A DNA stretch of 64,000 nt, taken from NCBI GenBank assembly GCA_015178975.1, contig WHVD01000001.1:4377012-4441011 (forward strand), given 5' to 3'. Below are positions 19,812-64,000 of the stretch, piece after piece. The notes below the pieces were generated by a model. That model was not told where the DNA came from. It worked only from the letters and a program-made list of their open reading frames with translations, and did not search any database. Each line of letters begins with the position of its first letter. The stretch's first letter is position 1. The position numbers were made by a program, and so were the translations under genes. This DNA is from Hysterangium stoloniferum. Its lineage: Eukaryota; Basidiomycota; Agaricomycetes; Hysterangiales; Hysterangiaceae.

Positions 19812-20066
19812 TGTTAAAGGTATAGAAAAGAATTGACCCAGCCTGGGATTGAACCAAGGACCTCTGGCTTTATATAAGCAGTGCTCTTAACCACTGAGCT
19901 ACTGGACCTATTGGTCTAGTGAGATATTATGGATTATATATACATATTCTATATAAGTCCTTCTGATGCTACCTTGGGACTTATACAGTCACATCTGGAC
20001 TGATGCCAACTAGGGACTTATAACAGCTTGGACATTCTAATAGATATTGTATTTCCAAATCTAACA
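19812..20066 (-). mobile_element. 255-bp mini LTR-like element carrying a tRNA-like sequence
   Basis: The unit begins TGTTAAAGG, ends ATCTAACA, and is flanked by TGTGC on both sides (19807-19811 and 20067-20071). Removing it rejoins the Tc1 transposase sequence (GTGTGCTTGGGATC). The TG...CA termini and 5-bp duplication are those of LTR elements, not of RNA-polymerase-III SINEs, yet a near-complete tRNA lies inside on the minus strand. Outside the tRNA it has no coding sequence. Confidence 0.85.
19834..19908 (-). tRNA. tRNA-like sequence (probable pseudo-tRNA)
   Basis: The 75-nt minus-strand sequence folds as a cloverleaf. The acceptor GGTCCAG/CTGGGTC pairs throughout with G-U wobbles, the D stem is GCTC/GAGC, and the T arm is CTTGG-TTCAATC-CCAGG with discriminator A. 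The A box (TAGCTCAGTGG) and B box (GGTTCAATCCC) are well conserved. The anticodon stem CTGCT/AGC(C)AG carries one extra C, and the loop TATATAA lacks U33. The anticodon cannot be named and translation use is doubtful. It sits inside a mobile element. Confidence 0.6.
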
Positions 20067-21142
20067 TGTGCTTGGGATCAATATCCTGCTGGAAGATGAC
20101 ATCATCTGCAGATTTACTATAGTCTCTGAAGCTGGCTTACAGGTCATCCTCCAGAATTTGGATGTAGAGATCCCCATCCATCCTTCCATCAATCTTGCAT
20201 ATGTACATACCCACTCACCCTATTGGAATATGTGGTTCAGAACCTTAAGCACCTATGTACATGTACCCATAGTAGTCCTTATCCAAGGCTTTGGTTCTAT
20301 CCACCATGCAGTCAATCTGACTCTGAGTTTGAGTATAAGTGGTGGTCTATTTGCCCACTAGGGTCACTAATCTGTGTCCTGAACCCCTTCTATTTTATCT
20401 TTCTAACACCCCCCCCACAGCATGCACACCTATGCTATCAAAGATCCATTACCAAAATTCAGGGTTCCCTCAACCAGGCTGTCACTCAAGCCCTCCCCTG
20501 CCTTTTCTGCACCCACTTCCTACCTGACCCCAGCCTATTGATTATAATCTCATCAGACCACATCACCTTCTTCCAGTCCTCCATAGTCCAATCCTGATGT
20601 GCCAAAGCAAAGTCCATCCTCATCTTCCTATGCTTCTTAGAAAGAAGAAGCCTTTTCTTCTTTACCACAGGCTTCATCCCAGCTGGCTTGAGTCCACAAT
20701 GCACTGTTTGGGGATGAAGTGACTGGTTGGTGATAGTGCAAAATGCCTTTGTTACATCTACAGTTGTATCAGCCTTCAGAGCTGATAAGGCATTATGCAA
20801 ATGGATGTTAGCTGTAGAGAGTTTGGAAGGACAACCACCAGAGGACTTAGAAAGGTGGGAACAATGTTTAGAGTGAAGTCTAAAGATAGTAGCAAAGCCA
20901 TGAAACTGAAATATGTTTGGCAAAATAGCCAGCATCAAGTAGAGAAAGGATCTCATGCTGGGAGGGGAAAGGAGATGCATAGTTGGAATTAGGAGACTCT
21001 TGGCTGTGAGAGCCCTTGTACTATTAATCTGATGAGACAAAAAGATTAAAGGGAACAAGAATAATGCAGAGTTGACCATAATGGGGATAAGGGTAATGAT
21101 GGAACAAGAACAAATGCAGGGACATAATAAACCAGATATCAA

Positions 21143-21269
21143 ACAGACTTACAGTAGGAACAGATGAGGGCAGGATCTTCACATGTCTAGAGGGTCCAGG
21201 ATATCTGGTTGGAGTCTGGTTGACAGGTCATCCTGTAAAAAGAAAGATAAGTGCTTGTAGAGTAAGATT
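21143..21269. other. junction of Tc1 copy 1 and copia-G
   Basis: A short non-coding stretch. It contains GTCTAGAGGGTCCAGG, which recurs in part (TCTAGA next to CACTTGAAG) at the right flank of Tc1 copy 2 near 24835. Confidence 0.35.
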
Positions 21270-28090: not shown

Positions 28091-28314
28091 AAGATATTTG
28101 TTTTCCGGGAATTCCTTGACCAAAGACTACATCCCCACTCCTGGTCATACATACTTATATGAGATAGCACAGTGACCAAGGCAATGCCTGGCCACCAGCA
28201 TCCACCAGAGTGCTGCTGGGCAGACCACCACCTTATCACTCACCACAATCAGTGTCTCTGAAGATTGAACTTTGTCAGCTAAGTTAGAGGGTGGCTAGGG
28301 AAATGGGATAGTAT

Positions 28315-28368
28315 TGGTTTCAAACTGATGAAAGCTCTCATCAGGGGGATACTGCTACCCATACCATT
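28315..28368 (-). ncRNA. hammerhead ribozyme, type III, diverged copy
   Basis: Minus strand, 5' to 3': stem III strand TGGT (28367-28364), cleavage nucleotide A (28363), stem I GGG...CCC, core CTGATGA (28345-28339), stem II GAGC/GTTT around TTTCATCA, core GAAA (28322-28319), and stem III strand ACCA. Stem III differs from the copy at 39422-39475 by a paired change (C-G to U-A). Stem II is held by G-U pairs and the first stem I pair is mismatched, so activity may be weak. Confidence 0.65.
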
Positions 28369-28399
28369 TTACCCGTCCAGAATTACTGATTAGGAGTCT

Positions 28400-29816
28400 A
28401 CACTAAGCCTGAGAGCGAAAGGGAGTGATAAGATACTGGATTCATGCTGACCAATGTGTGCAGTGCTCCCCCCTTTCACCCTGTGTGTCTTTGAAAAGTC
28501 CTCTGGTCAAGACTTTATTGTAAGATTGCCTACCATTTCCCCCACCCCCAGGAATCCTAGGGCAGATTTCACCTACAGAGATTGTGGAATATGCCTATTG
28601 CACAGATATCTGTACATCTTGGCCTCACACATTGAAGCCCAGTGAAAACCTGCTCTGGAAAGATCTGGGATTATCCATGGGAATCTGCTGAGAACTGAAG
28701 AGCAGATTGGATTCAGATATTTCTAGATTTTGGCCACCCTCCAGAAGATCTGCTGCTCACATTCTCTGGCCAAAATTTGAAAACTCAATCAAAATGCTGA
28801 GCACTTCTGGCTCTAGTTGGTGTGGTCTGTTGCATGCTGTAAATGTTTTAAATTGCTAGTTAATTATTAATTCTGCTATAATACATATTTGTTCTGGTAT
28901 ATTCTGCATTCTACTGTGTCCATCTGAGCTCTGGATACAGTTGATTATGTCATAATGCATAATGCTCATCCCCACCCTCAGCCAATGCATTATGAGATTT
29001 ATGCAACACCAGAAGTGTCACACATGTGTGACAATATGTGACATATACGTTGTTTATGGCGTTGTCTAGGCCAGTCTTCAATGTAAATGACATTTTATTA
29101 GAATATTATTTTTTGCAAAAAGACAATTTCAACAGTGATTTAGTTTTGACAAGGCAATAGGGTCAGCAAGTGTCAGATTTGCCTGCTGTGTGTGGATTGC
29201 TGGTTTTGCAGATGTCTTTGGCATATCTTTACTGCCAACCTGCTTCTATTTGTTTTTGACATAAGGTGCTGGCTTTTCTCAAGGCTTTCATGTAGTCTTG
29301 GGCTCAGTTTTAGGCATAAGGAATTAAAGACACAGTTGGAGAATGATAAAGGGTGTATGAAAATTTCCAACGCCCTGACATGCCTTAGCGCAATGCCATT
29401 ACATACTGGCATTTGTATGAATAATACAGCCTATTTAATTCAAACCTAAGCAGCCAGTGAAAGTTGTGCCTCAATCTGTCCTATCACAGTAATTCCAGTT
29501 CCGAAAGCTTAATTTCTCTCCCCCGTAATAATGCATATTGCCCTCCTTGGCCTATGCATTATCCATTATGCGTTATGCATTCATTTTCTCTGCATACCAA
29601 CATTGTTCCCAATACAACCCAATGCATTATTAGGTTTATGCATTATGACCTTATGCATTGACCTAATTGACTGTACTCACTATTTCCTGCTCTGCCGATT
29701 TTCATCCTTTGAGAGATAAACATAAACATATTTGTGAGTGAATCTATTAGAAAAAAAAACAATGTTTAGTTAGTGAGGCAAGATTAAGGTGAAAGATGAA
29801 GAAAAAATGTTTGACT
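28400..29816. other. no gene recognised; ATGCATTAT-rich patches
   Basis: No supported coding sequence. Two patches, about 28953-28997 and 29528-29661, repeat the motif TGCATTATG (also TATGCATTA) many times, each next to CCAATGCATTAT. These may be two fragments of one unknown repeat. Confidence 0.4.
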
Positions 29817-33599: not shown

Positions 33600-36500
33600 T
33601 TCTGTCTGCTCTGTGATATTGTTGGAAATGCGGGCTTGCGAACATTAATGAAAGTGGTATGGGCATTATTAATTTATTATCTAGGTTTTGTGTCCTCATG
33701 ATCCTATTAGCTAATTCTCGTCAAAGGATTACTCCCCCCAACGCTTCTATTTTTCCCGAGTATATTTTCCCAAACATTCGACACCTGTATAAAGACCCCG
33801 ATTCTTTCGTTCGATGTACTCTGGCCCAATGCGTTGCACCGTTGTCCGATACGAACGTACGGTATTTAGAAATTGGCCAGGCGATGAAGGCTCAGGGGAC
33901 ACTCAAACCGGCTCATACGGACGAATATGACGATGCACTTCACGAGGTGAGAGAAATAGTATTTCTGTCCTTTTTGATGCTCAGATGCGTCTTTATCTGC
34001 CAGTCTACAAGACCTGTAATCATTCATTCAAGACTTATTACTTTCGTTTTTGATAGTCTCGTGAAACGCACCGTACTACATAACGTCTCTTCGCTCTGTG
34101 TTTTCTTTGGACGGCAGAAGACGAATGATGTATTGCTCGGGCACATGATCACATATCTCAATGATCGAGATTGGCTTCTGCGATATGCATTTTTCGAGAC
34201 GATTGTCGATGTTGCGGCGTGTGTTGGCAGTCAAAGCTTATTTCCATTGATGATCCAAGCTTTGTCTGGTAAAAAAATTTTCCTCCTTAGTGTCTTTTAT
34301 TGACAAGTGCTGTTCTTTGAAGACGATGAAGAAACTGTTGTCGCTCGTGTTCTCACTTCGTTGACAAGTCTTTGTGATCTGGGTCTTTTCCAAAGAATGC
34401 GTCTGTGGGAACTCATGAGTGCTACTTTGGGCTTCCTTTATCATTTGAATATATGGATCAGAGAAGGTGTGTCCTGGTAGTATTTTGTTGAATACAAATA
34501 ACATTCAAGGAAATATAGGCGCCTTCCCATTTATTGCAGGAGGAAAGAAGAGATTGCCCTCAACAGATGTCTGGTGTATAGTATATCCTTCTTTCATACA
34601 ACTTTCACCCCGAGTGTTCGATGCGGCAGTGCTTTGGGGGATGAAAGCCGATCAAACTATTTTCTGGAAAGCTCAAAGCTCAAAAGGCAAGACGTTCCGA
34701 AGGCTGAGACACCCAGGAAGACTTTGATATGCAATATAAAGTCAGGAGCTACTCGTACAGCTGCAAACCGGACAAAAGAGTATGTGACCAGTTATTCTAT
34801 TTGTTATATTTCTGAATGATAATACAGGGATGAAGCCAATATCTCCAAGCTTCAAAAGCTTAGGATGACTTCTACTGACGAGATCAAACTTTTAGCACCT
34901 CGTGACTATATCGTTAAACTTTCCAATGTGCTATCAAGGTGAGATATATCAAGGAAACTGGTCGACATATGAGACTGACATGATCTAGGTTTGCTACACG
35001 GTCGAAAGAACCAGAACCAGAAGCAATGGCGCAAACGACGTCTGGCGTCGAGCTCCAGAAGCTCAGCGTTGTCCCACAAACTATATTCATCGCGAGGAGG
35101 CCCTCCGAAGTTTCCACCAAAGAGGGATCGTCACGGCGGTCAACACTCGATAGCCATGGACGTGACGGATTGTACAAAAGTCCACGCCTACCTCGTGTGG
35201 GTAGCCTCGAGCACACGAACCACTTTGATGATTTACGACGTAGACTAGCCATCATAAATGGATCGTCTTCCCTCACTATCCACGGCGGTCGCGAGCATAC
35301 CGCCTCTATGTCATCCGTGCGCCCCAGCAGTATCATGCCGCCGCCGGCGCCCGACCCTTCTGAAAATAGACCTGCAAGCCCCTCCGATTCCATGATGTCC
35401 AGCACTATTGATGGTTCCTCATCGCGAACGAGGCTCGACCTGCACATGGGGAGCACTCACTACTAGAAGCGCCGGTGGCGGTGGGCTCGGTGAAGGCTAA
35501 CGTGACTAGACTAGCTTGTTGGAAGCCCCATCCATTTCGCGGATGGGGATTGGGGGAGGGGAGGACGATATGGTTCTACCGTCGATCAGAAGCCTCTCTG
35601 ATTCACCGAACGTTTTACGCTGAGAGTAAGTACTTTGATTATTGCCTCATTCTGAAGTGGAATTATTACATGTATTTAGTATTCAAAACGTCTCTAAGTA
35701 TAGTATAATACAGGGAACGTTTTACGCTGAGATATTTACACGTCTTTAGCAACGGTCAATGGCATCGCTGTCGCGCCAGACCATGCGTTCTTTGTGACGT
35801 GTTCAGATGATACGACCGTGAAGGTGTGAGATACTGCGAGATTGGAAAGGAATGTGACTAGTAAGCCGCGACAGTCGTATTCGCAGCATCATACACGTGT
35901 GACACCGGTATGTATGCTTGAGGGTGCGCATTGTTTTGCAAGTACAAGTGACGATGGGAGTCTCCATGTTGTGACAGTGCATGTATCATCGAGTGGGTCT
36001 ATGCCCAAGTATAGTAAACTTCAGATAGCGAGAGAGCATCGTGCAAGGGAATACATCACATCTCTTGCGCATTACAATACAGGTAAAGATTTATTTATTT
36101 AATCAAGTCATCTACCTCTTTCTAGCTCGTGTGGTTTAGAAACTACCTCCAACATCATATATGCTACTACACATGCTACTATTGTCGTCCTCAACCTTCG
36201 CACTATGCGAATATTACAGACCATGGAGAATCTTCGGCATCACGGCCTCTGCGTTGATAAGCGGAAGCATGGATTGTGGTTGCATCCATCACCGGAGTTC
36301 TCACAACGTGAGATCTACGTTTTGGCTTGCTGATTAAGAGCTGGAAGACTCGCGTCGCGTCGCCTGGCAAACCCCTTAGAATACATAAATGCATGATTCA
36401 CCCAACGAAAGGCCGTGGCCGGTGGGTAATGGTTGCTCCCGGGGTCCGACCTTCCCCTCAATCGGAGGGAATGGTATTGAGTCATGGGGACAAGCTTCGA

Positions 36501-37082
36501 CATATGAAACTCGGGAATCTTCCCCTGACACAGTGCAGATCGGGGCTGCTCCCTCGGTCATCTCCGGAGATTCCCGCGGCTGCTATTGCGGTCCTTGTGC
36601 GCTCCCGCACTGCGCTCTCATCACCCGACGGTGCGACTCCGTCTGCTAGTGAGACGGATTCGTCGCGATAGACGTCTGTGTGGACACAGCCTGGTGAATG
36701 AGCAATGGTTGGGGGTGTGGATTTTTCAAACCTTGCAGGTTCCACCCGATTTGATGCGGGTATTGAATGCATGTATTAAAAACAAGGGGAAGCGGTTTCA
36801 TCGTGACAGGCTCGGACGATAGCGATGGCGATAAGGCATCATTCAGGAAAATCTATTTGGAACGCCTTGGTTCATTTGCCGTATGTATTAACGATCACGC
36901 TCCACTTCTTCTTGCGCGACTAATGACACCATCGGTTCCGAGACTATTACTCATGCAGCATCTGCTGGAGGCTCACCAAGACTGTATAACAGCCCTTGGG
37001 TGTATTGATTCACCCTTCCGCGGCGGTATCGTCAGCGGTGATCAGGTGTTGTGAAGGTATGGCGCGTAGAGGAAGCCCAGTG
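33600..37082 (+). pseudogene. vps15: VPS15-like (PI3-kinase regulatory subunit), 5'-truncated and broken
   Basis: VPS15 is the kinase-HEAT-WD40 scaffold of the VPS34 PI3-kinase complex in autophagy and vesicle sorting. The HEAT part (IFPEYIFPNIRHLYKDPDSF, then LCVFFGRQKTNDVLLGHMI and NDRDWLLRYAFFE) starts near 33700. GVELQKLSVVPQTIF follows at ~35040 and WD40 repeats from ~35750 (HAFFVTCSDD) to IDSPFRGGIVSGDQ near 37040, ending VKVWRVEEAQ-stop at 37082. GT-AG introns are retained. The kinase domain is absent. Breaks include TGA 35827-35829 in place of the Trp of KVWDTARLE, a frameshift near 35440-35466, a shift near 36260-36340 and another at ~37045. An intact copy must exist elsewhere. Confidence 0.9.
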
Positions 37083-37640
37083 ACAGCAAAATTCTTTGTA
37101 TCTATTAGCGGTTTTTGCCGCCGGTCATGTATCTATTTCGCTTTTCAAATTCACATCGACTGGCACTTTGTTCCGTTTGATGCATAACCACATTAGATTC
37201 AGGAATCTATTTAGAAATATAAGGGCGGAATGCAATCGCTACTCTTTATTAAATCGAGATTGAGTTAGAGTTTAGCAAGGGGCGCCGGCCGCCCGGCGAA
37301 CATCAAAATGACCGTGTTAGGACCGGTCCCCCGGAAGCATCCTTCTATTGGGCTATCTTGGCCTGTCGGCCGTATTATCGGACAAGGTAACAAAGGACCT
37401 TTCAGGAGAACTAACAAGGATATGTATATCCACTTTAAGGAAGAGGGGACTGTGTGGTATGCAGCTTTTGCCGGCGTGGCTGTAGGATGGGTTTCTTGGC
37501 TCTCAGCCTAAACCACGTGCGTTTCAACTCCGACTTCATTTCAAAACCCTGCATTCCACTAATTTGGGTTGTTCTTAATATAGGTCAGTTAATTATTTCA
37601 CCGGCGGGTTTCGTGTGTTTGCGGTCGGAGTGCGAATATT
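37083..37640. other. no gene recognised
   Basis: 3' flank of the VPS15 copy. A GC-rich block (GGCGCCGGCCGCCCGGCG) lies at about 37280-37298. No coding region is supported. Confidence 0.35.
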
Positions 37641-37762
37641 AGTGCGGCAACCCAATCTCCTGCGTATAAATCCCTGCCTGGTTCCACCACTCTCTTCAGA
37701 CCGACGGCCGCCCTCCCCCCTCTCCCCTCTCTCCCCCCAAACCCCACATCAACTTTAGCCTG
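37641..37762 (+). promoter_or_regulatory. TATA promoter-like repeat P1 upstream of the tandem array
   Basis: CCAATCTCCTGCG is followed by TATAAATCC (37665-37673), CTGCCTGGTTCCACCACTCT, a long CT-rich tract and CCACATCAAC. The same order recurs at 40301-40402. A CCAAT-like box, TATA and pyrimidine-rich start region make a plausible RNA polymerase II promoter reading into the array. Confidence 0.6.
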
Positions 37763-37766
37763 TTGC

Positions 37767-37851
37767 CTCAAGTCCCTCAACGTCGTCAAGTCTTATATCA
37801 AGCCCTTCAAGGTCGTCAAGCGTTATATCATGGTCAAGCCCAATATTTAGT
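37767..37851 (+). repeat. array-flanking repeat, left copy
   Basis: Carries short internal repeats of the type TCAAGTCTTATATCAAGCCC and TTCAAGGTCGTCAAGCGTT, ending GCCCAATATTTAGTCC. A second copy sits inside the right part of the array (39119-39235). Confidence 0.8.
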
Positions 37852-39415
37852 CCTTCACTTACTTTCTCTTGGCTGAGTTGCTTCCGTGGTCGCTGTCTGG
37901 TAAGAATCACTTAAATTTTTTATGCGTTCACTGACGGTATTGTTTGTAGTTTACTTACTTTCTCTTGGCTGAGTTGCTTCCGTGGTCGCTGTCTGGTAAG
38001 AATCACTTAAATTTTTTATGCGTTCACTGACGGTATTGTTTGTAGTTTACTTACTTTCTCTTGGCTGAGTTGCTTCCGTGGTCGCTGTCTGGTAAGAATC
38101 ACTTAAATTTTTTATGCGTTCACTGACGGTATTGTTTGTAGTTTACTTACTTTCTCTTGGCTGAGTTGCTTCCGTGGTCGCTGTCTGGTAAGAATCACTT
38201 AGATTTTTTATGCGTTCACTGACGGTATTGTTTGTAGTTTACTTACTTTCTCTTGGCTGAGTTGCTTCCGTGGTCGCTGTCTGGTAAGAATCACTTAGAT
38301 TTTTTATGCGTTCACTGACGGTATTGTTTGTAGTTTACTTACTTTCTCTTGGCTGAGTTGCTTCCGTGGTCGCTGTCTGGTAAGAATCACTTAGATTTTT
38401 TATGCGTTCACTGACGGTATTGTTTGTAGTTTACTTACTTTCTCTTGGCTGAGTTGCTTCCGTGGTCGCTGTCTGGTAAGAATCACTTAGATTTTTTATG
38501 CGTTCACTGACGGTATTGTTTGTAGTTTACTTACTTTCTCTTGGCTGAGTTGCTTCCGTGGTCGCTGTCTGGTAAGAATCACTTAGATTTTTTATGCGTT
38601 CACTGACGGTATTGTTTGTAGTTTACTTACTTTCTCTTGGCTGAGTTGCTTCCGTGGTCGCTGTCTGGTAAGAATCACTTAAATTTTTTATGCGTTCACT
38701 GACGGTATTGTTTGTAGTTTACTTACTTTCTCTTGGCTGAGTTGCTTCCGTGGTCGCTGTCTGGTAAGAATCACTTAAATCTTTTATGCGTTCACTGACG
38801 GTATTGTTTGTAGTTTACTTACTTTCCTTTTCGCTGTCTGGTAAGAATCACTTAGATTTTTTATGCGTTCACTGACGGTATTGTTTGTAGTTTACTTCCG
38901 TTCTCTTGGCTGAGTTGCTTCCGTGGTCGCTGTCTGGTAAGAATCACTTAAATCTTTTATGCGTTCACTGACGGTATTGTTTGTAGTTTATTTACTTTCT
39001 CTTGGCTGAGTTGCTTCCGTGGTCGCTGTCTGGTAAGAATCACTTAGATTTTTTATGCGTTCACTGACGGTATTGTTTGTAGTTTACTTACTTTGCTTTC
39101 GCTACTTGGCTCTCTGGTTCATCAAGCGTTATATCAAGTCCTTCAACGTCATCAAGTCTTATATCAAGCCCTTCAAGGTCGTCAAGCGTTCTATCAAGGT
39201 CAATCAGTTCAAGCCCAATATTTAGTCCCTCACTTAATTTCTCTTGGCTGAGCTGCTTCCGTGGTCGCTGTCTGGTAAGAATCACTCAGATTTTTTATGC
39301 GTTCACTGACGGTATTGTTTGTAGTTTACTTACTTTGCTTTTCACTGTCTGGTAAGAATCAGTTAGATTTTTTATAGATTTTTTATGCGTTCACTGACGG
39401 TATTGTTTGTAGTTT
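37852..39415 (+). repeat. tandem array of 96-bp exon-intron-like units (15 donors)
   Basis: The unit repeats with period 96 bp: donors GTAAGAATCAC are at 37900, 37996, 38092, 38188, 38284, 38380, 38476, 38572, 38668, 38764, 38841, 38937, 39033, 39275 and 39352. Each unit holds a 50-nt segment that looks like an intron (GTAAGA..., TTCACTGAC branch-like site, ...TTTGTAG) and a 46-nt segment ending GGTCGCTGTCTG. Copies are nearly identical. Because 46 is not a multiple of 3, spliced units would not keep a reading frame, so coding is unlikely. Confidence 0.9.
39119..39240 (+). repeat. array-flanking repeat, right copy
   Basis: Diverged copy of 37767-37851, with the added stretch TCAATCAGTTCAAGCCC, followed by two more array units. 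A 65-codon minus-strand ORF (39285-39088) with acidic Leu-Asp repeats reads through it and is probably a by-product of the repeats. Confidence 0.8.
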
Positions 39416-39421
39416 AGGAGA

Positions 39422-39475
39422 GCGGTCGGGGTAGCGCTATCCCCCTGATGAGAGCTTTCGTCGGCTCGAAACCGT
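39422..39475 (+). ncRNA. hammerhead ribozyme, type III, complete core
   Basis: Stem III GCGGT (39422-39426) pairs with ACCGT (39471-39475). The cleavage triplet is GTC, cut after C39427. Stem I is GGGG/CCCC (39428-39431 with 39441-39444) with loop TAGCGCTAT. The core is CTGATGA (39445-39451), stem II GAGC/GCTC (39452-39455 with 39464-39467) closes loop TTTCGTCG, and GAAA is at 39468-39471. Every core nucleotide of the hammerhead family is present. The open helix is stem III, so it is type III. Cleavage would fall 15 nt after the last intron-like acceptor of the array. Confidence 0.85.
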
Positions 39476-40143
39476 ATCCCCTAGCCACTTTTGTCCTAGT
39501 ATTATAAATGAGCAAGCAACGATATATTTTTACGTCGCCACCGCTCTCTCGCAAAGTCGGAAAGACCCGGGCCGTGTTCAACCGACGGATGCAACTACCT
39601 ATCGAGTGGTGCTGTGAGAACTATGCAAAATGAAGAAGACATGAGATGAAGGGACGGAACTATATACATGGTAAATGTGGAACAATAGGGAAGGAGAAAA
39701 AAGGGGGAACAAAGAGACAAGAGATATGTTAACTTTTGGGAATTTGGTAAACGAGCGGCAAGGACTCAGGCTATTAGTAAGCAGGTTACTAGGGTATATA
39801 TGGATGAGACTTGTATTATAGTACTCATCCGTTTACAACGAGTTAACTGTTACCTACTCAGACAAACGGAAAGTTATAACGGTCTAAGAACAGCGCCACT
39901 GAAAACTTAACAAGATATTTGGCCTTGTGAGCTCTAGGCTGCTGAATGCGTGTGTCACGTCTCATCCAGAGAAACCGAACAAAGGCATTGTTCGATCTAA
40001 TAGTCCTTGGCGTCAATGTTGTGGGAGGGACTTGGAATAAATTATAGGCCACGCACAAGACGTTTTCTGCTAGTTTATATCTATCGAAAATATGGGATAT
40101 TAACTATGTATATAGCCTGAATATTTAAATGCTGGTATTTATT
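39476..40143. other. no gene recognised
   Basis: Downstream of the ribozyme, TATCCCCTAGCCAC is shared with the flank of the other hammerhead (TTTCCCTAGCCACC on the minus strand near 28290). Nothing else is recognised. Confidence 0.35.
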
Positions 40144-40203
40144 CCCGCGGATTTTGCGTACTATTGTTATTGGAGGTAAAAAATAGTACCCAAAATCCGC
40201 GGG
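40144..40203. repeat. 22-bp hairpin
   Basis: Arms CCCGCGGATTTTGCGTACTA-TT and AA-TAGTACCCAAAATCCGCGGG pair with a single mismatch around a ~16-nt loop. It lies between the ribozyme and promoter copy P2. Confidence 0.75.
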
Positions 40204-40300
40204 CATGGATCGATGGAGGCTAATCACTATAATTAAATCCATCAATGAATACAGTCTGGGAATGAAGTGGAACTGAGGGCACACGCCTGTATTCGGTTGG

Positions 40301-40402
40301 AGAGGTGCAACAACTCAACCTCCTATGTATAAAGCCCTGCCTTGTTCGACCACTCTCTCCACCCCCACCCCCCCCCCAACGCCACATCAACGCAAACTCC
40401 AG
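40301..40402 (+). promoter_or_regulatory. TATA promoter-like repeat P2
   Basis: CAACTCAACCTCCTATG, TATAAAGCC (40328-40336), CTGCCTTGTTCGACCACTCT, a C-rich tract and CCACATCAAC repeat the order of P1 with about 80% visual identity. It has the same orientation as P1 and lies 2.66 kb away. No ORF follows it on the plus strand. Confidence 0.5.
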
Positions 40403-40615
40403 CACACCGAGACATACATCTGTCAACGAGCTACTGCTCTACTTGGTCTATCGTACATAGATTATTTATGCAGGAGTTAGTGACCAAAAGAAATTATTGC
40501 TGGAGCTCTAGACCGTGAAGATTTGTATGGGTAGGATTCCGTTTGACGTGTTATTTGCCCAGTAAGCTATATCCACGATAAAATATTAAATAGTGTACTC
40601 TTTCAATAATTTAAT

Positions 40616-41722
40616 TTATGCATAATCCGCCAATACCTTCTCAACTGTCTTCCAAGTATCTCCACGCGCCACCCAAGTCTCACCATTGCGTTGCCCCCAT
40701 ATTTGACTATCCCACTGTTTTCCAAATGCCAGCAACTGCGCGTTGATCACTTGCGAGTCGAATGACTGTGCCGTCTGCGTTGTATTCTTCAAATATGTTG
40801 TAAACATTATCCACCTAGGGAGGTAGTACGTTCCCACAATACCAGCCCATTGCTTTGATGCATAATCGTTGATCTCCCCGTCAGGTCCCCAAAGTGTGAT
40901 TTGATTACGAGCGTTGTATTCTAAGTAATCGGCATACTGGGCGCCATTGCTGCTTGCGCCCCAACCACGTGCGACTTTGATCCAGTTGCTTAGGAGGAAA
41001 TTATCATTCGTCCAAAGAAGGGTGTCGAGATCGCAAAGAATGGTGGGGAGAGGTTGGATAGCTGCCGAGACTGCATCGGGGGTGGAGCCATTCGCTTGAT
41101 AAACAGCAACAAGGTTTTGATATGCCTCGAGAAAACGATTGGCCAACAATTGTCGCCCGAGCTCAACGACGTCATATGAGAACTCCGGAATCCCTTTCAA
41201 TGCTGGGTGTTCTTTGCTCGCTTCGACCATAAGTTTCAAGGGAGCAACAATACTGCTATTGGTATCGTAGAATATTGGTGTGGGATGATGGCCAGTACGG
41301 TTGGTAAGTCCAGTTAACGCTGGAGCAAGCTCCAAAATACTCTTGACGGTTGCCTGGGTGTTAGGGTCTGTGTTATTGTACACCGTATTGGATAGGATGG
41401 ACCAGGCTCGTTGGACGGTAACTGGTAGTTTTGAAATACGATAACGGCGGCCGACCCAAGACGATACATAACTGGAGATGTTAAGTGGTGAAGAAGACCA
41501 AGCTTGGTCGAGAAAGATGTCGTAGATGATTTCATTTCCTTCCTGCCCCTCCATGGTAAGACCAAAGCCGCTCATCGAACTATTCGGAGAGTTGAGGGCC
41601 TCTATCGGCGCGACCGTCACATTCTTCAAGTAACCTTCAAATCCTTGGTTTCCTCCGTAGTCATGCAAGGCACACCAAACCCAAGGTCTCCCAAAGTACG
41701 ACGATGTGCGCTGCCTGTGATA
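40616..41722 (-). pseudogene. alpha-N-acetylglucosaminidase (GH89), C-terminal exon only
   Basis: GH89 enzymes remove alpha-linked N-acetylglucosamine. The minus strand is open from an acceptor-like TTTTATCACAG at ~41723 to TAA 40616-40618, about 368 codons. It contains SYFGRPWVWCALHDYGGN, the NEIIYDIF segment that holds one catalytic Glu in characterised members, and the helical C-terminal domain with NQITLWGPDG. The N-terminal half, including the other catalytic Glu, is missing: beyond 41740 the DNA is LTR-C3. The exon itself has no stops or shifts, so the truncation may be recent. Confidence 0.85.
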
Positions 41723-55112: not shown

Positions 55113-58100
55113 ACCTAATACTCCTCCTCGAGTTTTGAAGAAGTAGGTCCTAAACGTTCTGTGTGATGGTAGTGAATGGGTGAGGAGAGTGGTTTCGTCA
55201 ATATATCCAGTCATTTGTTTAGTTGATTGATAGATAAGTTGGATAGTGCCGTTTTCAATCAAATGACAAATGAAGTGGTATTTCACTTCAATGTGTTTCA
55301 TTCTTCTCAAAGCGCATTGGTTTTGTGCGAATGCAATAGTACCTTGATTATCTTCAAAAATTGCCGTTGGTTCTTCATATATTATATTAAGTTCTTCGAG
55401 GAAATGACGCATCCACATAATTTCATGAGCTGCTTCTGAAAGCGCAATATACTCCACTTCTGTGGATGAAAGGGTGACTGTTGACTGCTTCCTCAAAGAC
55501 CAAGATACCGTTCCTGAACCTAAAAAAATTGCATATCCTCCTGTTGAACATCTATCCTCTTGATCTCCTGCAAAATCGGCATCTGAATATCCATGCAGGC
55601 AAAGAGCTTGTCCTCCCAAGCGAAGTTCGAAATCGCGAGTCGTATACAAATATTGTAGGATGTGTTTAGCTAAGTCCCAATGAATTCTCGCGGGATTTGA
55701 TGAATATTGAGATAGTTTGTTAACAGAATATGCGATATTGGGACGCGATACTGTAGCTGCGAACATCAAACTTCCAATAAGTTCACAATAGGGCAATTTT
55801 TCAACTTCATTTCGTTCTTCTTCAGTATCTGGACGAATAATAGAGGCGAAATTGATTCCAAGTGATATGGGAGTTCGAATTGGCTCGGAATTTTGTATGT
55901 TGAACTTCTTCGCTATATTTTCAATATATTCCCTCTGTGATATAAATGCTGATTTCGATTCAGCATCTCGACGGATACTCGTTCCCAATATCCAATGGGC
56001 CTCGCCTTTGCTCGAAATTCCAAATCATTCGTGGAATGCCTTTTCGAGATCTAGGAGCCGTTTTTCATCACCTATGGCAGTTGTGTCATCCACCCAAAAT
56101 GCAACTACAGCCTAACTTCCGTCGTCCCATATTTTGAAGAATGTAGCACTGTCAAAATCGGAACAGAACCAGGTGAGTTCTTTAACCATAAAATCATACA
56201 GCGTTTTTCTCAACTCATTGCCTCCCTGTTTTGTTCCATATAGAGCCTTCAATAACGGTAATGCTAAATTTTCCTTTCCGGGTTCTTCAAACCCCTCCGG
56301 TTGTTGAACCCAAACCTTTTCTTTCATTGTCCCATGTAAGTACGCCGATTTGACATCGAATTGATGTATAGCTGAATTTGTTATTGCTCCCAGTGCCAGT
56401 AAAATTTGGAACGTTTCCCACTTCATGACTGGTGCGTATGTTTCATTAAAATGTAATCCAGGAATTTGACTAAATCCTTTTACGACAATTCGTACTTTCC
56501 TCTTTATTAGTTCGCCATTCTTGTACGATCCACGACACACCGTTCTGGTTTTTAAAACATGTGTTCCTGGCGGCAGTTCTTCAGGTGCGCTGAATACATT
56601 ATGTTCTACCATATTCTTCCACTCTGCCTGCCTAGCTTCTTCCCAAGCTAATCCTTCGTCTCCTGGCATATTCAATGCCTCCTCTATCGTCAGATTGCCC
56701 AATGTCGAGAAAACAACCGGTACGTTAGAATCTTCCAATTCTTTTTCTTCGACTGACAATAAACTTCGAATTCCTTCCTGCACTTTACCAGATCTTGTTA
56801 TTCCACGAGGATAGTCAGGTATGTTTGACACTAATTGGGATTCTTCTCTCATCATAGTTTCCTCTTTTTCTTTGATAGGTCGAGGACGAGGCGGGATACG
56901 GATCGTGAGTCTAGGTTGAGGCTCTTTTTCGGGTTGCATTGGATGTACTCTATTTATATTCCTAAATTGACCTTCATCTCCATAAGGCACCAGTGATGGC
57001 AATGTCATCGCATCTTCATGGAATATCGCATCGCGTACCTTTTCGATCCTCCTTGTTCCAGGGAACCACACTAAATATCCAGATGAATACGGTTCATATC
57101 CAACCATATAACCCATCTTCGAACGTGAGTCCCACTTCTGACGTCTTTGCTTAGGAACTGCCACACTAACTGGACTTCCAAAGATCCGCAAATGTGCTAA
57201 ATCTGGCTTCTCTCCCGTTATCCTTTCAATAGGTGTATGTCCATTGTTTGCATGTGATGGACTACAATTCCTCAAATATACCATCGTTTTGACTGCGATA
57301 GACCACAAGAATTTAGGGAGTTTTGATGCATAAAGTAAGTTTTGTGCACCTTCCGCTATTTTCGTCGCATATAACATTGTTCTTGCCCCTTCAGTAATGG
57401 TGCGTATACCTCTTTCTGCAACACCATTTTGCTGCGGCGTATATGGCACCGAGGTAAATAAAGCTATACCTTTCGATAACAGATAGCTTCTAAATTCCAA
57501 ATTTATTAGCTCGGTTCCGTTATCCGTCATAACTCCTTGGACCCTCGTATTGAATAACGTTTCCAGTTGAGTTATATATTCCTTTATTTTGTGCACCACT
57601 TCCAGCTTGCTTGCTAATGTTTCAACCCATACAGCACGGGAGAAGTCGTCAACAACAATAATGAAATAACGCTTTTTGTCAAAACTTATCGTTTCCATAC
57701 GTTCGGCAAGATCCATATGGAGTAATTCTCCCAATTTCGTCGCTCTAGTATGTCCAGTTTTGAATGGGTTTCTGCACTGTTTACCTTCAATACATGCAAT
57801 GCAGTCAGCTTTGAAACCTTCAATTTCTTCAATCTCCATTCCGGTCGCAAAATGTCGTGCAAGATTCCTAATAGCGTTCATGCTCAAATGCCCCAAACGC
57901 TGATGCCATTTCATAATATTGCATGTCGAATTCGCAGAAAACATTATAGGTACGTCTTCCAACCTATTTTGTAATTCATCATCTGATAGATTTGTATATT
58001 CGCATACTGGTGATGACACGGAGATCGTATCCAGCTGGAAAGGGTATACATTACCCCTCTCATTCGCCTCAATCAGTGTATGGCCTGACGAATCGACAAT

Positions 58101-59387
58101 TGTAGAACCAGTTTTGCTCAACATAACGCGATATCCATCCTTAAAAAACTGTGCGGGATTAAGGAGTCACACTTTAACTTCAGGAGTCCATTCGACATTG
58201 GGAATTTTGCCTATAAACTCCGGACCATGTTCCATAACTTTGAAACGCAATGTTCCAATACCTCTGGCATAAATATAAGTGCCATTTGCCATTTGAATTT
58301 TCTTCGGATTTTTGTATGCCATAAAATCGTGTAAGTCATACATACTCGGCACATAATGTCCTGATGCTGCGGAATCCAGGAAATATTTATGTGGCACACT
58401 CTCCTTACTCAAGAAAAATGTGGATTTGACGGCAGTAAACATTCCCCTACTTGCAACTGAGGGAGATGGCGTATTTCCAGATGAGTCGTTACTTCTATTT
58501 TGGTTCTTCCAATTTTCAGATTGCTGAGCATATCTCTGCTTTCTTTTAGGACAATCGCTTGCCCAATGCGACAAATCCCTGCATTCGAAACAACCAGATT
58601 GTGGAGTACTCCTCCTGATCTGAGTTCCTTGTGGAATGGCAGCACGACCATGACCCCTATTATGAAATGCTCCTCGCTGCGTACTGATTCCCCTCTGGGG
58701 GCGAAATGTGGAACCTTCGCCCCTCTGGGCACGAAATGTGGAACCTTCGCCATAGCCTGGACGTATTTCTTTTCAAATCTCAACTTGACGCAGTTTATTG
58801 ACTACTTCCTCCACAGTATCAACATCATAATTGATTGTCATTGACATTATATCGAAATCCTCGGGTAGCGTACTCATGAATAGGCTGAGGTAGTCAGCAT
58901 TCGTGATGGCATGACCAGCCTCCAACAATTTAAGTCTGATGGAGTCCATTTGGGATTTATATTCGATAATTCCTGTACCATCGTAATGCATACGAACGAG
59001 TTCGGAAAGTAGCGTCACACGACTATTGGCCAATCGCATTCCGTAAGTCATCTTCAAAGTTTCCCACGCATTGACCAGATTACTATCCACCATTATAGCC
59101 ACCCTGGGCTCATCTTCAACACGGAGCATTATCTCGCTGTAGGCCCTCTTCTTTTGAAGTTCCCAGGCCTCTTTGATCTCAAGTTCCTCCATCGTCGGAA
59201 CCTTCACATCTATGCATATAGGATCCACCAGTTCTCCAGTTACAACCTTCCATTGATTCAAAGACTCCAGCACGGTTTTCATACCCCCGCTCCAAGTAAA
59301 ATAATTGTCTTTGTGTAACTTCAGAAAAACTTGGTCCCGGGCTGTTACCAGTGCGTGCACCTCAAGGTGAGGTGCTCGCTCATTCAC
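55113..59387 (-). pseudogene. copia-K gag-pol (left palindrome arm)
   Basis: One minus-strand frame spans the whole polyprotein, broken only by TGA 58773-58775, TGA 58167-58169, TAG 56112-56114 and TGA 56025-56027. Gag opens with FLKLHKDNYFTWSGGM, then the zinc knuckle CFECRDLSHWASDC and protease FLDSAASGHYV. The pre-integrase finger is WHQRLGHLS...CIACIEGK, integrase has LHMDLAE, MTDNGTEL and QNGVAERG, and RT has IHQFDVKSAYLHG and FWVDDTT. RNase H has YSDADFAGDQ, STEVEYIALSE and FEDNQGTIAF. The 5' end is truncated at ~59338 and joined to an opposite-strand ORF. Nothing upstream resembles a 5' LTR. Confidence 0.92.
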
Positions 59388-59804
59388 GAGCAGGCCACGG
59401 GGTCCAGTTCATGGGAGAATGGCGGGTTGGATGGATACTCCGGTCTGGAGGAGGTTTTGGGATGGATCGCCGAGGGCATAGAGGCCCAGAATGAGTTGCT
59501 CCGGAAGAGCAACAAGGTCAGTGTGGTGATGGCGAACGATCTCTGTGCACTCCGTGGGGACCATTTCAAGTTCCTTATGGAGTATGCCCACTTTGTATAT
59601 GACAAGCTGGAGGCCGGGAGTTCCGAGGAAGCCAGTTCAGATGAGGAGGAGGTGCCTGCAGAGGTCGTGGAGCTACCCGAGGAGATGAATGAGGTGGGAA
59701 AGGCTGAGGTGGAAAAAGAGGCAGGGAAAAAAGATAGCCCCATCAATGTAGATGAATAGAAGTAAAAACTTAATAGTAATTTGAACATAAAAGTAAAGTG
59801 TGAA
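55870..59804. repeat. left arm of giant palindrome
   Basis: Positions p here and 119869-p on the right are complementary. For example, the 670-codon ORF at 56112-58124 (minus) is mirrored exactly at 61745-63757 (plus). The only difference noticed is one extra A on the right near 63950. The arm may extend further left; the right copy is cut at the window end. Confidence 0.95.
59331..59759 (+). CDS. hypothetical protein with CxxC motif and acidic tail (left copy)
   Basis: An open frame of 142 codons begins with GCYQCVHLKVRCS, resembling half of a zinc-cluster or gag-associated Cys motif. A central helical stretch (EGIEAQNELLRKSNKVSVVM) and a strongly acidic tail (EEASSDEEEVPAEVVELPEE) follow. 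Similar Cys-then-acidic-tail proteins occur around basidiomycete retroelements, but I cannot name the family. The true start may lie upstream, since the first codons overlap the junction with the copia-K gag on the other strand. Confidence 0.5.
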   Translation: MVPGCYQCVHLKVRCSLIHEQATGSSSWENGGLDGYSGLEEVLGWIAEGIEAQNELLRKSNKVSVVMANDLCALRGDHFKFLMEYAHFVYDKLEAGSSEEASSDEEEVPAEVVELPEEMNEVGKAEVEKEAGKKDSPINVDE

Positions 59805-60064
59805 GAAACCTCATGGATTTTGGCCACAGAACTCGGTAATGCCATGGAAATCGTTACTGACTTTCATACAGCTTACCCGCTCAAACCTGGACCATTATCT
59901 TCTCTCTAACTGCACTCCGCAGACCCCGTGTTACGTTTGGACTCATTTTCATTATTCCCTGTCACCCTATGTCTCTCTTTGCTTTTACAGGTTCTGACAT
60001 GTCTTGTCAAGTCTTTAAGCGGACTCTCCGCGGACTTTGGCTTTGACTTTTATTTTTTATGTTT
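59805..60064. other. palindrome spacer
   Basis: The 260-bp unique centre of the inverted duplication. It has no significant ORF and is pyrimidine-rich on the plus strand. Complementarity ends at GTGTGAA on the left and begins at TTCACAC on the right. Confidence 0.9.
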
Positions 60065-60109
60065 TTCACACTTTACTTTTATGTTCAAATTACTATTAAG
60101 TTTTTACTT

Positions 60110-60538
60110 CTATTCATCTACATTGATGGGGCTATCTTTTTTCCCTGCCTCTTTTTCCACCTCAGCCTTTCCCACCTCATTCATCTCCTCGGGTAGCTCC
60201 ACGACCTCTGCAGGCACCTCCTCCTCATCTGAACTGGCTTCCTCGGAACTCCCGGCCTCCAGCTTGTCATATACAAAGTGGGCATACTCCATAAGGAACT
60301 TGAAATGGTCCCCACGGAGTGCACAGAGATCGTTCGCCATCACCACACTGACCTTGTTGCTCTTCCGGAGCAACTCATTCTGGGCCTCTATGCCCTCGGC
60401 GATCCATCCCAAAACCTCCTCCAGACCGGAGTATCCATCCAACCCGCCATTCTCCCATGAACTGGACCCCGTGGCCTGCTCGTGAATGAGCGAGCACCTC
60501 ACCTTGAGGTGCACGCACTGGTAACAGCCCGGGACCAA
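60110..60538 (-). CDS. hypothetical protein with CxxC motif and acidic tail (right copy)
   Basis: Exact mirror of 59331-59759, same 142-residue product. The two copies diverge from the spacer in a tail-to-tail arrangement: their 3' ends face each other across ~350 bp. Confidence 0.5.
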   Translation of the reverse strand: MVPGCYQCVHLKVRCSLIHEQATGSSSWENGGLDGYSGLEEVLGWIAEGIEAQNELLRKSNKVSVVMANDLCALRGDHFKFLMEYAHFVYDKLEAGSSEEASSDEEEVPAEVVELPEEMNEVGKAEVEKEAGKKDSPINVDE

Positions 60539-63500
60539 GTTTTTCTGAAGTTACACAAAGACAATTATTTTACTTGGAGCGGGGGTATGAAAACCGTGCT
60601 GGAGTCTTTGAATCAATGGAAGGTTGTAACTGGAGAACTGGTGGATCCTATATGCATAGATGTGAAGGTTCCGACGATGGAGGAACTTGAGATCAAAGAG
60701 GCCTGGGAACTTCAAAAGAAGAGGGCCTACAGCGAGATAATGCTCCGTGTTGAAGATGAGCCCAGGGTGGCTATAATGGTGGATAGTAATCTGGTCAATG
60801 CGTGGGAAACTTTGAAGATGACTTACGGAATGCGATTGGCCAATAGTCGTGTGACGCTACTTTCCGAACTCGTTCGTATGCATTACGATGGTACAGGAAT
60901 TATCGAATATAAATCCCAAATGGACTCCATCAGACTTAAATTGTTGGAGGCTGGTCATGCCATCACGAATGCTGACTACCTCAGCCTATTCATGAGTACG
61001 CTACCCGAGGATTTCGATATAATGTCAATGACAATCAATTATGATGTTGATACTGTGGAGGAAGTAGTCAATAAACTGCGTCAAGTTGAGATTTGAAAAG
61101 AAATACGTCCAGGCTATGGCGAAGGTTCCACATTTCGTGCCCAGAGGGGCGAAGGTTCCACATTTCGCCCCCAGAGGGGAATCAGTACGCAGCGAGGAGC
61201 ATTTCATAATAGGGGTCATGGTCGTGCTGCCATTCCACAAGGAACTCAGATCAGGAGGAGTACTCCACAATCTGGTTGTTTCGAATGCAGGGATTTGTCG
61301 CATTGGGCAAGCGATTGTCCTAAAAGAAAGCAGAGATATGCTCAGCAATCTGAAAATTGGAAGAACCAAAATAGAAGTAACGACTCATCTGGAAATACGC
61401 CATCTCCCTCAGTTGCAAGTAGGGGAATGTTTACTGCCGTCAAATCCACATTTTTCTTGAGTAAGGAGAGTGTGCCACATAAATATTTCCTGGATTCCGC
61501 AGCATCAGGACATTATGTGCCGAGTATGTATGACTTACACGATTTTATGGCATACAAAAATCCGAAGAAAATTCAAATGGCAAATGGCACTTATATTTAT
61601 GCCAGAGGTATTGGAACATTGCGTTTCAAAGTTATGGAACATGGTCCGGAGTTTATAGGCAAAATTCCCAATGTCGAATGGACTCCTGAAGTTAAAGTGT
61701 GACTCCTTAATCCCGCACAGTTTTTTAAGGATGGATATCGCGTTATGTTGAGCAAAACTGGTTCTACAATTGTCGATTCGTCAGGCCATACACTGATTGA
61801 GGCGAATGAGAGGGGTAATGTATACCCTTTCCAGCTGGATACGATCTCCGTGTCATCACCAGTATGCGAATATACAAATCTATCAGATGATGAATTACAA
61901 AATAGGTTGGAAGACGTACCTATAATGTTTTCTGCGAATTCGACATGCAATATTATGAAATGGCATCAGCGTTTGGGGCATTTGAGCATGAACGCTATTA
62001 GGAATCTTGCACGACATTTTGCGACCGGAATGGAGATTGAAGAAATTGAAGGTTTCAAAGCTGACTGCATTGCATGTATTGAAGGTAAACAGTGCAGAAA
62101 CCCATTCAAAACTGGACATACTAGAGCGACGAAATTGGGAGAATTACTCCATATGGATCTTGCCGAACGTATGGAAACGATAAGTTTTGACAAAAAGCGT
62201 TATTTCATTATTGTTGTTGACGACTTCTCCCGTGCTGTATGGGTTGAAACATTAGCAAGCAAGCTGGAAGTGGTGCACAAAATAAAGGAATATATAACTC
62301 AACTGGAAACGTTATTCAATACGAGGGTCCAAGGAGTTATGACGGATAACGGAACCGAGCTAATAAATTTGGAATTTAGAAGCTATCTGTTATCGAAAGG
62401 TATAGCTTTATTTACCTCGGTGCCATATACGCCGCAGCAAAATGGTGTTGCAGAAAGAGGTATACGCACCATTACTGAAGGGGCAAGAACAATGTTATAT
62501 GCGACGAAAATAGCGGAAGGTGCACAAAACTTACTTTATGCATCAAAACTCCCTAAATTCTTGTGGTCTATCGCAGTCAAAACGATGGTATATTTGAGGA
62601 ATTGTAGTCCATCACATGCAAACAATGGACATACACCTATTGAAAGGATAACGGGAGAGAAGCCAGATTTAGCACATTTGCGGATCTTTGGAAGTCCAGT
62701 TAGTGTGGCAGTTCCTAAGCAAAGACGTCAGAAGTGGGACTCACGTTCGAAGATGGGTTATATGGTTGGATATGAACCGTATTCATCTGGATATTTAGTG
62801 TGGTTCCCTGGAACAAGGAGGATCGAAAAGGTACGCGATGCGATATTCCATGAAGATGCGATGACATTGCCATCACTGGTGCCTTATGGAGATGAAGGTC
62901 AATTTAGGAATATAAATAGAGTACATCCAATGCAACCCGAAAAAGAGCCTCAACCTAGACTCACGATCCGTATCCCGCCTCGTCCTCGACCTATCAAAGA
63001 AAAAGAGGAAACTATGATGAGAGAAGAATCCCAATTAGTGTCAAACATACCTGACTATCCTCGTGGAATAACAAGATCTGGTAAAGTGCAGGAAGGAATT
63101 CGAAGTTTATTGTCAGTCGAAGAAAAAGAATTGGAAGATTCTAACGTACCGGTTGTTTTCTCGACATTGGGCAATCTGACGATAGAGGAGGCATTGAATA
63201 TGCCAGGAGACGAAGGATTAGCTTGGGAAGAAGCTAGGCAGGCAGAGTGGAAGAATATGGTAGAACATAATGTATTCAGCGCACCTGAAGAACTGCCGCC
63301 AGGAACACATGTTTTAAAAACCAGAACGGTGTGTCGTGGATCGTACAAGAATGGCGAACTAATAAAGAGGAAAGTACGAATTGTCGTAAAAGGATTTAGT
63401 CAAATTCCTGGATTACATTTTAATGAAACATACGCACCAGTCATGAAGTGGGAAACGTTCCAAATTTTACTGGCACTGGGAGCAATAACAAATTCAGCTA

Positions 63501-64000
63501 TACATCAATTCGATGTCAAATCGGCGTACTTACATGGGACAATGAAAGAAAAGGTTTGGGTTCAACAACCGGAGGGGTTTGAAGAACCCGGAAAGGAAAA
63601 TTTAGCATTACCGTTATTGAAGGCTCTATATGGAACAAAACAGGGAGGCAATGAGTTGAGAAAAACGCTGTATGATTTTATGGTTAAAGAACTCACCTGG
63701 TTCTGTTCCGATTTTGACAGTGCTACATTCTTCAAAATATGGGACGACGGAAGTTAGGCTGTAGTTGCATTTTGGGTGGATGACACAACTGCCATAGGTG
63801 ATGAAAAACGGCTCCTAGATCTCGAAAAGGCATTCCACGAATGATTTGGAATTTCGAGCAAAGGCGAGGCCCATTGGATATTGGGAACGAGTATCCGTCG
63901 AGATGCTGAATCGAAATCAGCATTTATATCACAGAGGGAATATATTGAAAAATATAGCGAAGAAGTTCAACATACAAAATTCCGAGCCAATTCGAACTCC
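60482..64000 (+). pseudogene. copia-K gag-pol (right palindrome arm, partial)
   Basis: Mirror of the left arm from gag to the connection after the RT catalytic box. The same four stops are present: TGA 61094-61096, TGA 61700-61702, TAG 63755-63757 and TGA 63842-63844. An additional frameshift comes from the extra A near 63950. The rest, including RNase H and any LTR, lies beyond the window. Shared stops show that the duplication happened after the element was dead. Confidence 0.92.

Follow-up and report, generated by a model that had tools for sequence, protein, structure and literature searches.

We consider it probable, at roughly 0.6, that a family of type III hammerheads has multiplied in this genome as the centre of non-autonomous Helitron elements of a Helitron2-like kind, and that the motif at 39422-39475 is one copy of this family. 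The window, that is the whole 64-kb stretch analyzed here, forms the terminal 64 kb of contig C1, and the genome searched comprises 111.1 Mb in 554 contigs (C1 etc.). The plus-strand motif at 39422-39475 is, by its sequence, a complete type III hammerhead. It has CUGANGA, GAAA and an NUH triplet, and of its three helices helix III is the open one. The initial annotation, which had called a complete type III hammerhead, named the same core letters, helices and GTC triplet that we read there. Hammerheads cleave after an NUH triplet. With C39427, which we take to be nucleotide 17 in hammerhead numbering, cleavage is predicted between 39427 and 39428, with a 5'-OH at 39428. The parts of the motif are as follows.

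39422-39475, plus strand: type III hammerhead ribozyme motif, from direct reading, an RF00008 match below the cut-off and genomic recurrence
39422-39426, plus strand: 5' strand of helix III, GCGGT, pairing with 39471-39475
39428-39444, plus strand: helix I (GGGG at 39428-39431 with CCCC at 39441-39444) and loop I, from sequence reading
39445-39451, plus strand: catalytic core CTGATGA, from sequence reading
39452-39467, plus strand: helix II (GAGC at 39452-39455 with GCTC at 39464-39467) and loop II, from sequence reading
39468-39475, plus strand: GAAA core (39468-39471) and 3' strand of helix III (39471-39475), from sequence reading

Helix III as read here pairs GCGGT with ACCGT at 39471-39475 over 5 bp, the outermost pair being G-U. 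At curated thresholds no Rfam hammerhead was found anywhere in the 64-kb window. An E-value threshold search aligned RF00008 (Hammerhead_3) to 39420-39477 over model positions 1-54 of 54 with 28.1 bits, which falls short of the gathering cut-off of 48.5 bits. The covariance-model hit envisaged in the initial annotation was thus obtained as a full-length alignment, but not at a score above the cut-off. The match has E = 3.7e-4 in a search of 301 bases and 0.079 in a search of the 64 kb, both for all 4,227 families; for RF00008 alone, the calculated E is about 2e-5 in the window and roughly 0.03 in the whole 111-Mb genome. A genome search with RF00008 returned a single row of 24.5 bits, its loose first pass having missed copies known from another search of the genome, and the model also matched in 7 of 14 control genomes, in none of them above the cut-off; this search is therefore uninformative. 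When 59 nt around the motif were folded in isolation, the minimum-energy fold differed from the hammerhead and its stability equaled that of shuffled sequences (z -0.04).

The motif recurs throughout the genome. The genome query consisted of an array of intron-like units, described below, plus the ribozyme, and 40 of 163 candidates were scored. Besides copies of the array region, the final 53 nt of the query matched alone, at about 96%, in many genomic places. The core pattern CTGATGAGN{4,30}CGAAAC gave 109 genomic matches compared with 3 for the reversed pattern, and because of this excess we regard the core as more than a chance string. Among the 100 places listed of these 109, the closest two on one contig are 3.1 kb apart. 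The fetched loci contained 98 core matches, 89 of them distinct. Three loci that matched the core pattern without hammerhead context (L048, L059, L062) were removed before alignment, and omission of L046, L064/L096, L076 and L097, which keep the core and have lost part of the side of helix I or III, reduced 57 distinct rows to 53 aligned copies. The ends were examined in 91 loci, namely the 89 distinct ones plus L115 and L117. Searches of the viral_contigs, genome_contigs and plasmids collections yielded no match; none of these collections is fungal, so they are uninformative on other fungi.

As read from these loci, most hammerhead copies lie within a dispersed non-coding element, mostly of 410-490 bp and with fixed ends. 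It begins with TCCACCA (5' end consensus TCCACCATCGTCTTGCTG) and finishes with a hairpin and then GCTAA or GCTAT; written out, the 3' end is GGTGACC-loop-GGTCACC followed by TTGCTAA, GGCTAA or GGCTAT. With a lenient match, both ends are present in 72 of the 91 loci. Across the genome the 5' end matched 126 times with at most one mismatch (control, 0) and the 3' hairpin end 99 times (control, 0). The 3' ends on contigs up to C539, for which the list of cores is complete, number 92, and in this set, where ends were located independently of the ribozyme, the exact core stands at the expected upstream place in 59 and is absent from 33. The 5' end also accompanies at least 59 of the 92, at least 43 of them with the core. 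In those 59 the end-to-end span is 414-487 bp in 56 and 1,267, 1,686 and 2,036 bp in the other three, the end pairs of 1.27, 1.69 and 2.04 kb being on contigs C24, C531 and C148, respectively. The 410-490-bp elements encode no transposition protein, as they are too short.

Both ends carry secondary structure. In 63 of 72 copies the 5' TCCACCA recurs in inverted orientation, as TGGTGGA, shortly 5' of the 3' hairpin; this short asymmetric inverted repeat of the 5' end sits about 45 nt before the 3' end. Subfamilies differ in the pair that extends the 3' stem, which is either A-T or T-A. Near the 5' end, a subterminal hairpin CCAGCAGG-GAAA-CCTGCTGG has the variant CCAGCAAG-GAAA-CTTGCTGG, with a G-C to A-T change. 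In L045, L074 and L099 the loop side of this hairpin reads TTTCCC instead of GGGAAA, as if inverted, and L021 is similar; a possible interpretation is DNA-level hairpin processing. Three other loci, L113, L114 and L116, share an upstream flank (GTGACGATCTGCAT) and the 5' part of the element, and a long other sequence replaces the ribozyme half. They appear to be chimeric or captured sequence. Downstream of L114 we looked for element ends, the core and reading frames and found no partner.

The junctions were compared with those expected of Helitrons. The 5' TC is present as in Helitrons, and the continuation at the 3' end in 56 copies is GCTAA (33), GCTAT (21), GCTAG (1) or GCTTA (1), so that 21 of the 56 read GCTAT where Helitrons have CTRR. 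In 56 copies that have both ends and differ in their flanks, direct repeats at the junctions are no commoner than with shuffled flanks; a 7-bp repeat at the ends is seen in L023 and in three relatives that share its flanks. A solo-LTR reading was rejected, the ends not being TG...CA and duplications being absent. The joined flanks of 72 copies were compared with the fetched loci, and those of eleven also with the whole genome. Among the fetched loci, six of the 72 matched across the join (L030, L037, L046, L051, L098 and L103), of which L046, a tandem repeat, and L103, a self match, are uninformative as empty sites. The L051 join aligns ungapped to L007 (94.6% over 74 nt) and the L037 join ungapped to a relative (85% over 68 nt), the L098 join matches L030 at 83% over 142 columns with gaps elsewhere and none at the join, and the L030 join differs from L098 by a single-nucleotide gap located 2 nt away from the join.

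The closest empty sites are those of L055, at C162:38475-38584 (97%, 110 nt against 110) and C528:329005-329113 (98%, 109 against 109), both without net length change; three further places are 100% identical over 74 nt spanning the join, and about 22 more distant relatives (77-85%) mostly show a net length difference of about 10 nt. The L095 empty site (92% over 77 nt) is likewise unchanged in net length. The L080 relatives (81-83%) and the L041 relatives (85%) show net differences of 9 and 5 nt, respectively, summed over the alignment. At the close paralogous empty sites, TCC...GCTA[A/T] has thus been inserted with neither gain nor loss. A or G precedes the element in 71% of cases and T follows it in 59%. 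An A|T target was found in 11 of 54 copies, fewer than the strict canonical A|T (or T-rich) target of Helitrons calls for, and we therefore use the term "Helitron-like".

Overall, the features shared with Helitron(2) elements are the lack of a TSD above chance, the precise close empty sites, the 3' hairpin, the asymmetric inverted repeat and the 5' hairpin. The genome has at least 151 matches to Helitron_like_N; inspection by eye of the matches listed for 5' ends, 3' ends and Helitron_like_N revealed no element end pair around a RepHel match. In the Helitron-like reading the elements would be non-autonomous and depend for their movement on RepHel proteins from genes at other places in the genome. 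Where an element or a leader unit is transcribed, its RNA may fold into the hammerhead and cut itself a single time after the NUH triplet, with a 2',3'-cyclic phosphate on one predicted product and a 5'-OH on the other. Most transcripts would stay uncut, held in a competing rod-like hairpin of greater predicted stability.

The hammerhead reported from the window is placed differently, as its surroundings put it outside the dispersed element and within a longer repeat; a decayed copy of the dispersed element lies elsewhere in the window.

36153-40868, plus strand: longer repeat holding the reported hammerhead, its limits being those of the stretches compared and not proven ends
37660-37710, plus strand: TATA-like box and pyrimidine-rich presumed leader 5' of the array, from sequence reading
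37900-39412, plus strand: 15 intron-like units, mostly in a 96-bp tandem array, from GTAAGA...CTGAC...TTTGTAG signals
39416-39509, plus strand: flanked hammerhead module, sharing 98.9% identity with the C99 copy (L007)
28164-28462, minus strand: 5'-truncated, decayed dispersed element, from BLAST of 72 elements against the window
28315-28366, minus strand: degenerate hammerhead with CTGATGA and GAAA intact and helices weakened

Stretches related to the longer repeat occur in at least 10 places (C1, C99, two on C30, C146, C74, two on C246, C441 and C303), and an eleventh match, on C153, is interrupted by the contig end. The hammerhead is kept, whole or mostly, in the window and in eight other places compared, the second C246 place being left out. 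The TATA-like leader is kept in L007 and L017. At 40315-40375, about 0.8 kb 3' of the ribozyme, there is another TATA-like leader similar to that at about 37660. The intron-like units, putative and defined by splice-like signals, measure 50 nt in fourteen cases and 61 nt in the last. They end at 39412 and the motif starts at 39422, which bears out the initial description of a hammerhead directly 3' of an intron-like tandem array. Between 37857 and 39094 the 96-bp tandem array contains a complete intron-like sequence per unit and looks like an expansion of exon-intron units. This array is local; the 53-nt hammerhead motif recurs at many places without it. The stretch 39416-39509 is partly homologous to the centre of the dispersed elements, and because the hammerhead and some tens of flanking bases are common to both contexts, one context probably derives from the other. 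An alpha-N-acetylglucosaminidase is encoded on the minus strand from 40616.

The window's own copy of the dispersed element (28164-28462) is 86% identical to L101 over 304 columns and retains the 3' hairpin region and the GCTAT end; its hammerhead at 28315-28366 gave no Rfam hammerhead match. Searching the window for the 5'-end pattern gave 6 matches with up to 3 mismatches, none of them convincing, and 1 of 100 shuffles reached 6. The 28164-28462 copy, shown by BLAST, has no 5' end. Judged from its content, the window is a transposon-rich chromosome end. Ty3-type gag and protease frames lie at 520-2488, a tRNA at 19834-19908 and a Tc-type transposase fragment at 20489-21148. At the very end of the contig, 55918-59807 and 60062-63951 form a 3,890-nt inverted repeat of 100% complementarity that holds Copia-type pol frames (RVT_2, rve) and is either a fold-back of the assembly or a palindrome of very recent origin. 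A near-perfect 28-nt inverted repeat occupies 40141-40206, and this hairpin is probably the cause of a weak, below-threshold Rfam match to AaHKsRNA69 at the same place.

The evidence that the hammerhead functions as RNA is modest. Across the 53 distinct aligned copies CTGATGA is invariant, the copies having been selected by this core, and 99.5% of helix II cells are paired. Three measures exceeded all shuffles (0 of 500 each): 96.7% of helix cells are paired compared with 95.8% in shuffled alignments, 10 cells are changed on both sides, all of them in helix III, compared with 3.2, and the covariation score is 0.101 compared with 0.083. The rows are related by descent, and relatedness misleads two measures least: the count of pairs with a double-sided change (3 vs 1.6, reached in 54 of 500 shuffles) and that of further pair types (12 vs 10.6, 41 of 500). 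Neither is clearly above shuffles. One C-G pair of helix III is CG in 35 copies, UG in 9, UA in 7 and CA in 1 (Fisher p 5.6e-4). The next pair is GC in 43, GU in 3, AC in 3, AU in 2 and GA in 1 (p 0.07), with mismatches as frequent as wobbles (3 vs 3). The changes amount to C-to-T or G-to-A transitions within CpG steps and could therefore reflect decay of both arms instead of covariation. As to the compensatory stem changes in related sequences by which the initial annotation was to be judged, double-sided changes do occur in helix III, but they may reflect CpG decay, and two of the measures are weak. Of the 53 rows, 51 have a letter at nucleotide 17, which is A in 30 rows, C in 16, T in 5 and never G; L040, which is damaged at this point, and L078 have none. 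The corresponding triplets are GTA (28), GTC (16), GTT (5), GCA (1) and ATA (1).

These data bear on the best placed of the rival explanations, which we nevertheless consider unlikely: that a Helitron-like element captured the hammerhead once, from an RNA replicon or a leader unit, and has since copied it passively, without present function. Capture of flanking DNA by Helitrons is described in excerpts of PMC4778049 and PMC4289320, conservation of the ribozyme helices does not clearly exceed that of the remainder of the element (0.86-0.91 vs 0.83-0.92), and the window's own element copy has decayed. The possible CpG origin of the double-sided changes, the two weak covariation measures and the preference of energy models for a fold other than the hammerhead point the same way. 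Against a mere passenger stand the exact core in 59 of 92 independently found 3' ends, the absence of G from nucleotide 17 in 51 rows, the 9-to-1 ratio of UG wobbles to CA mismatches at one helix III pair, and the retention of the hammerhead module, whole or mostly, in the longer repeat as well.

Second among the rivals, and improbable to us, is a retrozyme- or SINE-like life cycle, in which hammerhead-cut transcripts would be circularized, reverse-transcribed and inserted by retrotransposon enzymes, making the ribozyme the engine of spread. Folding predictions lend it some appeal. The best hairpin of the window copy reaches -18.6 kcal/mol and the hammerhead -16.8 kcal/mol in an energy model without tertiary contacts; with tertiary contacts likewise outside the model, the competing fold and the hammerhead reach -25.6 and -17.4 kcal/mol in L023, -21.0 and -17.6 in L022, and -19.8 and -16.8 in L056. 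A competing hairpin that masks the ribozyme is also reported for retrozyme LTRs in the excerpt of PMC4918200, as are non-autonomous elements that carry a type III hammerhead, and the element size is near that of animal retrozyme RNAs, about 170-400 nt in the excerpt of PMC7229834. Element RNA folds better than shuffles in L022 (z -3.4) and in L027 (z -5.0, for a stretch shifted by about 5 nt that starts in the flank and misses the last bases), but the complement of L022 is also structured (z -2.6), and a consensus fold of the whole element shows double-sided changes in only 5 of 91 pairs, a weak covariation. Furthermore, the hammerheads are single, with none less than 3.1 kb apart on one contig among the 100 listed of 109, duplications do not exceed chance, close empty sites are precise, and the element ends lie far from the cleavage site, for which a ribozyme-cut circle gives no reason. 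For the same single copies, lack of duplications above chance and precise insertion at close empty sites, neither of the analogies drawn in the initial annotation, to retrozymes and to Penelope-like elements, finds support.

That a hammerhead-shaped string without ribozyme history was merely copied by the repeat is very improbable: the motif scores below the Rfam gathering cut-off, its isolated fold equals shuffles and, given shared descent, copy number alone shows a repeat and not a ribozyme, but the RF00008 match is full-length with all core positions, some helix III covariation measures are above shuffles, and the NUH position varies among A, C and T.

Beyond the Helitron-like carrier itself, the ribozyme might have a working role in a rolling-circle DNA transposon, with cleaved or circular RNA taking part in its spread or control. 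We hold this extension to be improbable; if true, Helitron-type elements and retrozyme- or viroid-like RNAs would overlap in one entity. The mobile eukaryotic hammerheads described in the literature excerpts belong for the most part to retroelements or tandem repeats, where they are taken to process RNA for retrotransposition. Spread of a hammerhead by an apparent DNA-to-DNA rolling-circle element would break this link between ribozyme and retrotransposition, leaving two options: the ribozyme is of some use to a DNA transposon, or hammerheads can travel as passengers. With about 100 natural variants that differ in cleavage triplets and helix III pairs, cleavage and the effect on mobility are both directly testable.

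Hammerheads have been seen in other fungi, the yeast Yarrowia lipolytica among them. Its hammerheads are, like those described here, tied to interspersed repeats in a fungus (excerpt of PMC3088659, which names no type of element). For the basidiomycete Pleurotus ostreatus, the excerpt of PMC5040776 lists five Hammerhead_3 annotations, which resemble our motifs in being type III hammerheads of a basidiomycete genome and are annotated there without an element or mobility. In the excerpt of a mushroom transcriptome study, hammerhead transcripts are among the structural RNAs that were filtered out (PMC8893723).

Plant LTR retrozymes, as far as the excerpt of Cervera et al. 2016 (PMC4918200) describes them, are alike in being non-autonomous and non-coding, with a type III hammerhead, highly self-paired RNA and a competing hairpin over the ribozyme. 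They have two ribozymes in LTRs and 4-bp duplications, whereas the elements described here have neither and instead show fixed hairpin ends that are not LTR-like and precise insertion. Animal non-LTR retrozymes (excerpt of PMC7229834) are likewise short repeats, a few hundred bp in length, that are non-coding and carry a hammerhead, but they consist of tandem type I monomers, in contrast to the single type III copies without duplications found here. Penelope-like elements and Terminons (excerpts of PMC6431247 and PMC7229834) also bring hammerhead motifs into eukaryotic mobile elements; they are reverse-transcriptase elements with type I variants, for which the 410-490-bp elements leave no room.

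The closest likeness in structure is to Helitron2-type and fungal Helitrons, for which excerpts of PMC5148889 and PMC4289320 describe a 5' TC, hairpins near both ends, an asymmetric inverted repeat and insertion without duplication; RepHel genes are present in this genome as well. The elements described here differ from them in their GCTAA or GCTAT ends, their relaxed target, the hammerhead they carry and, among the listed matches, the lack of a RepHel partner with the same ends. In excerpts of the open-access literature, PMC4918198 and PMC6431247 among it, we found nothing that joins a Helitron with a hammerhead or other self-cleaving ribozyme. Hammerheads in basidiomycetes were thus already known, and it is their Helitron-like carrier that looks new.
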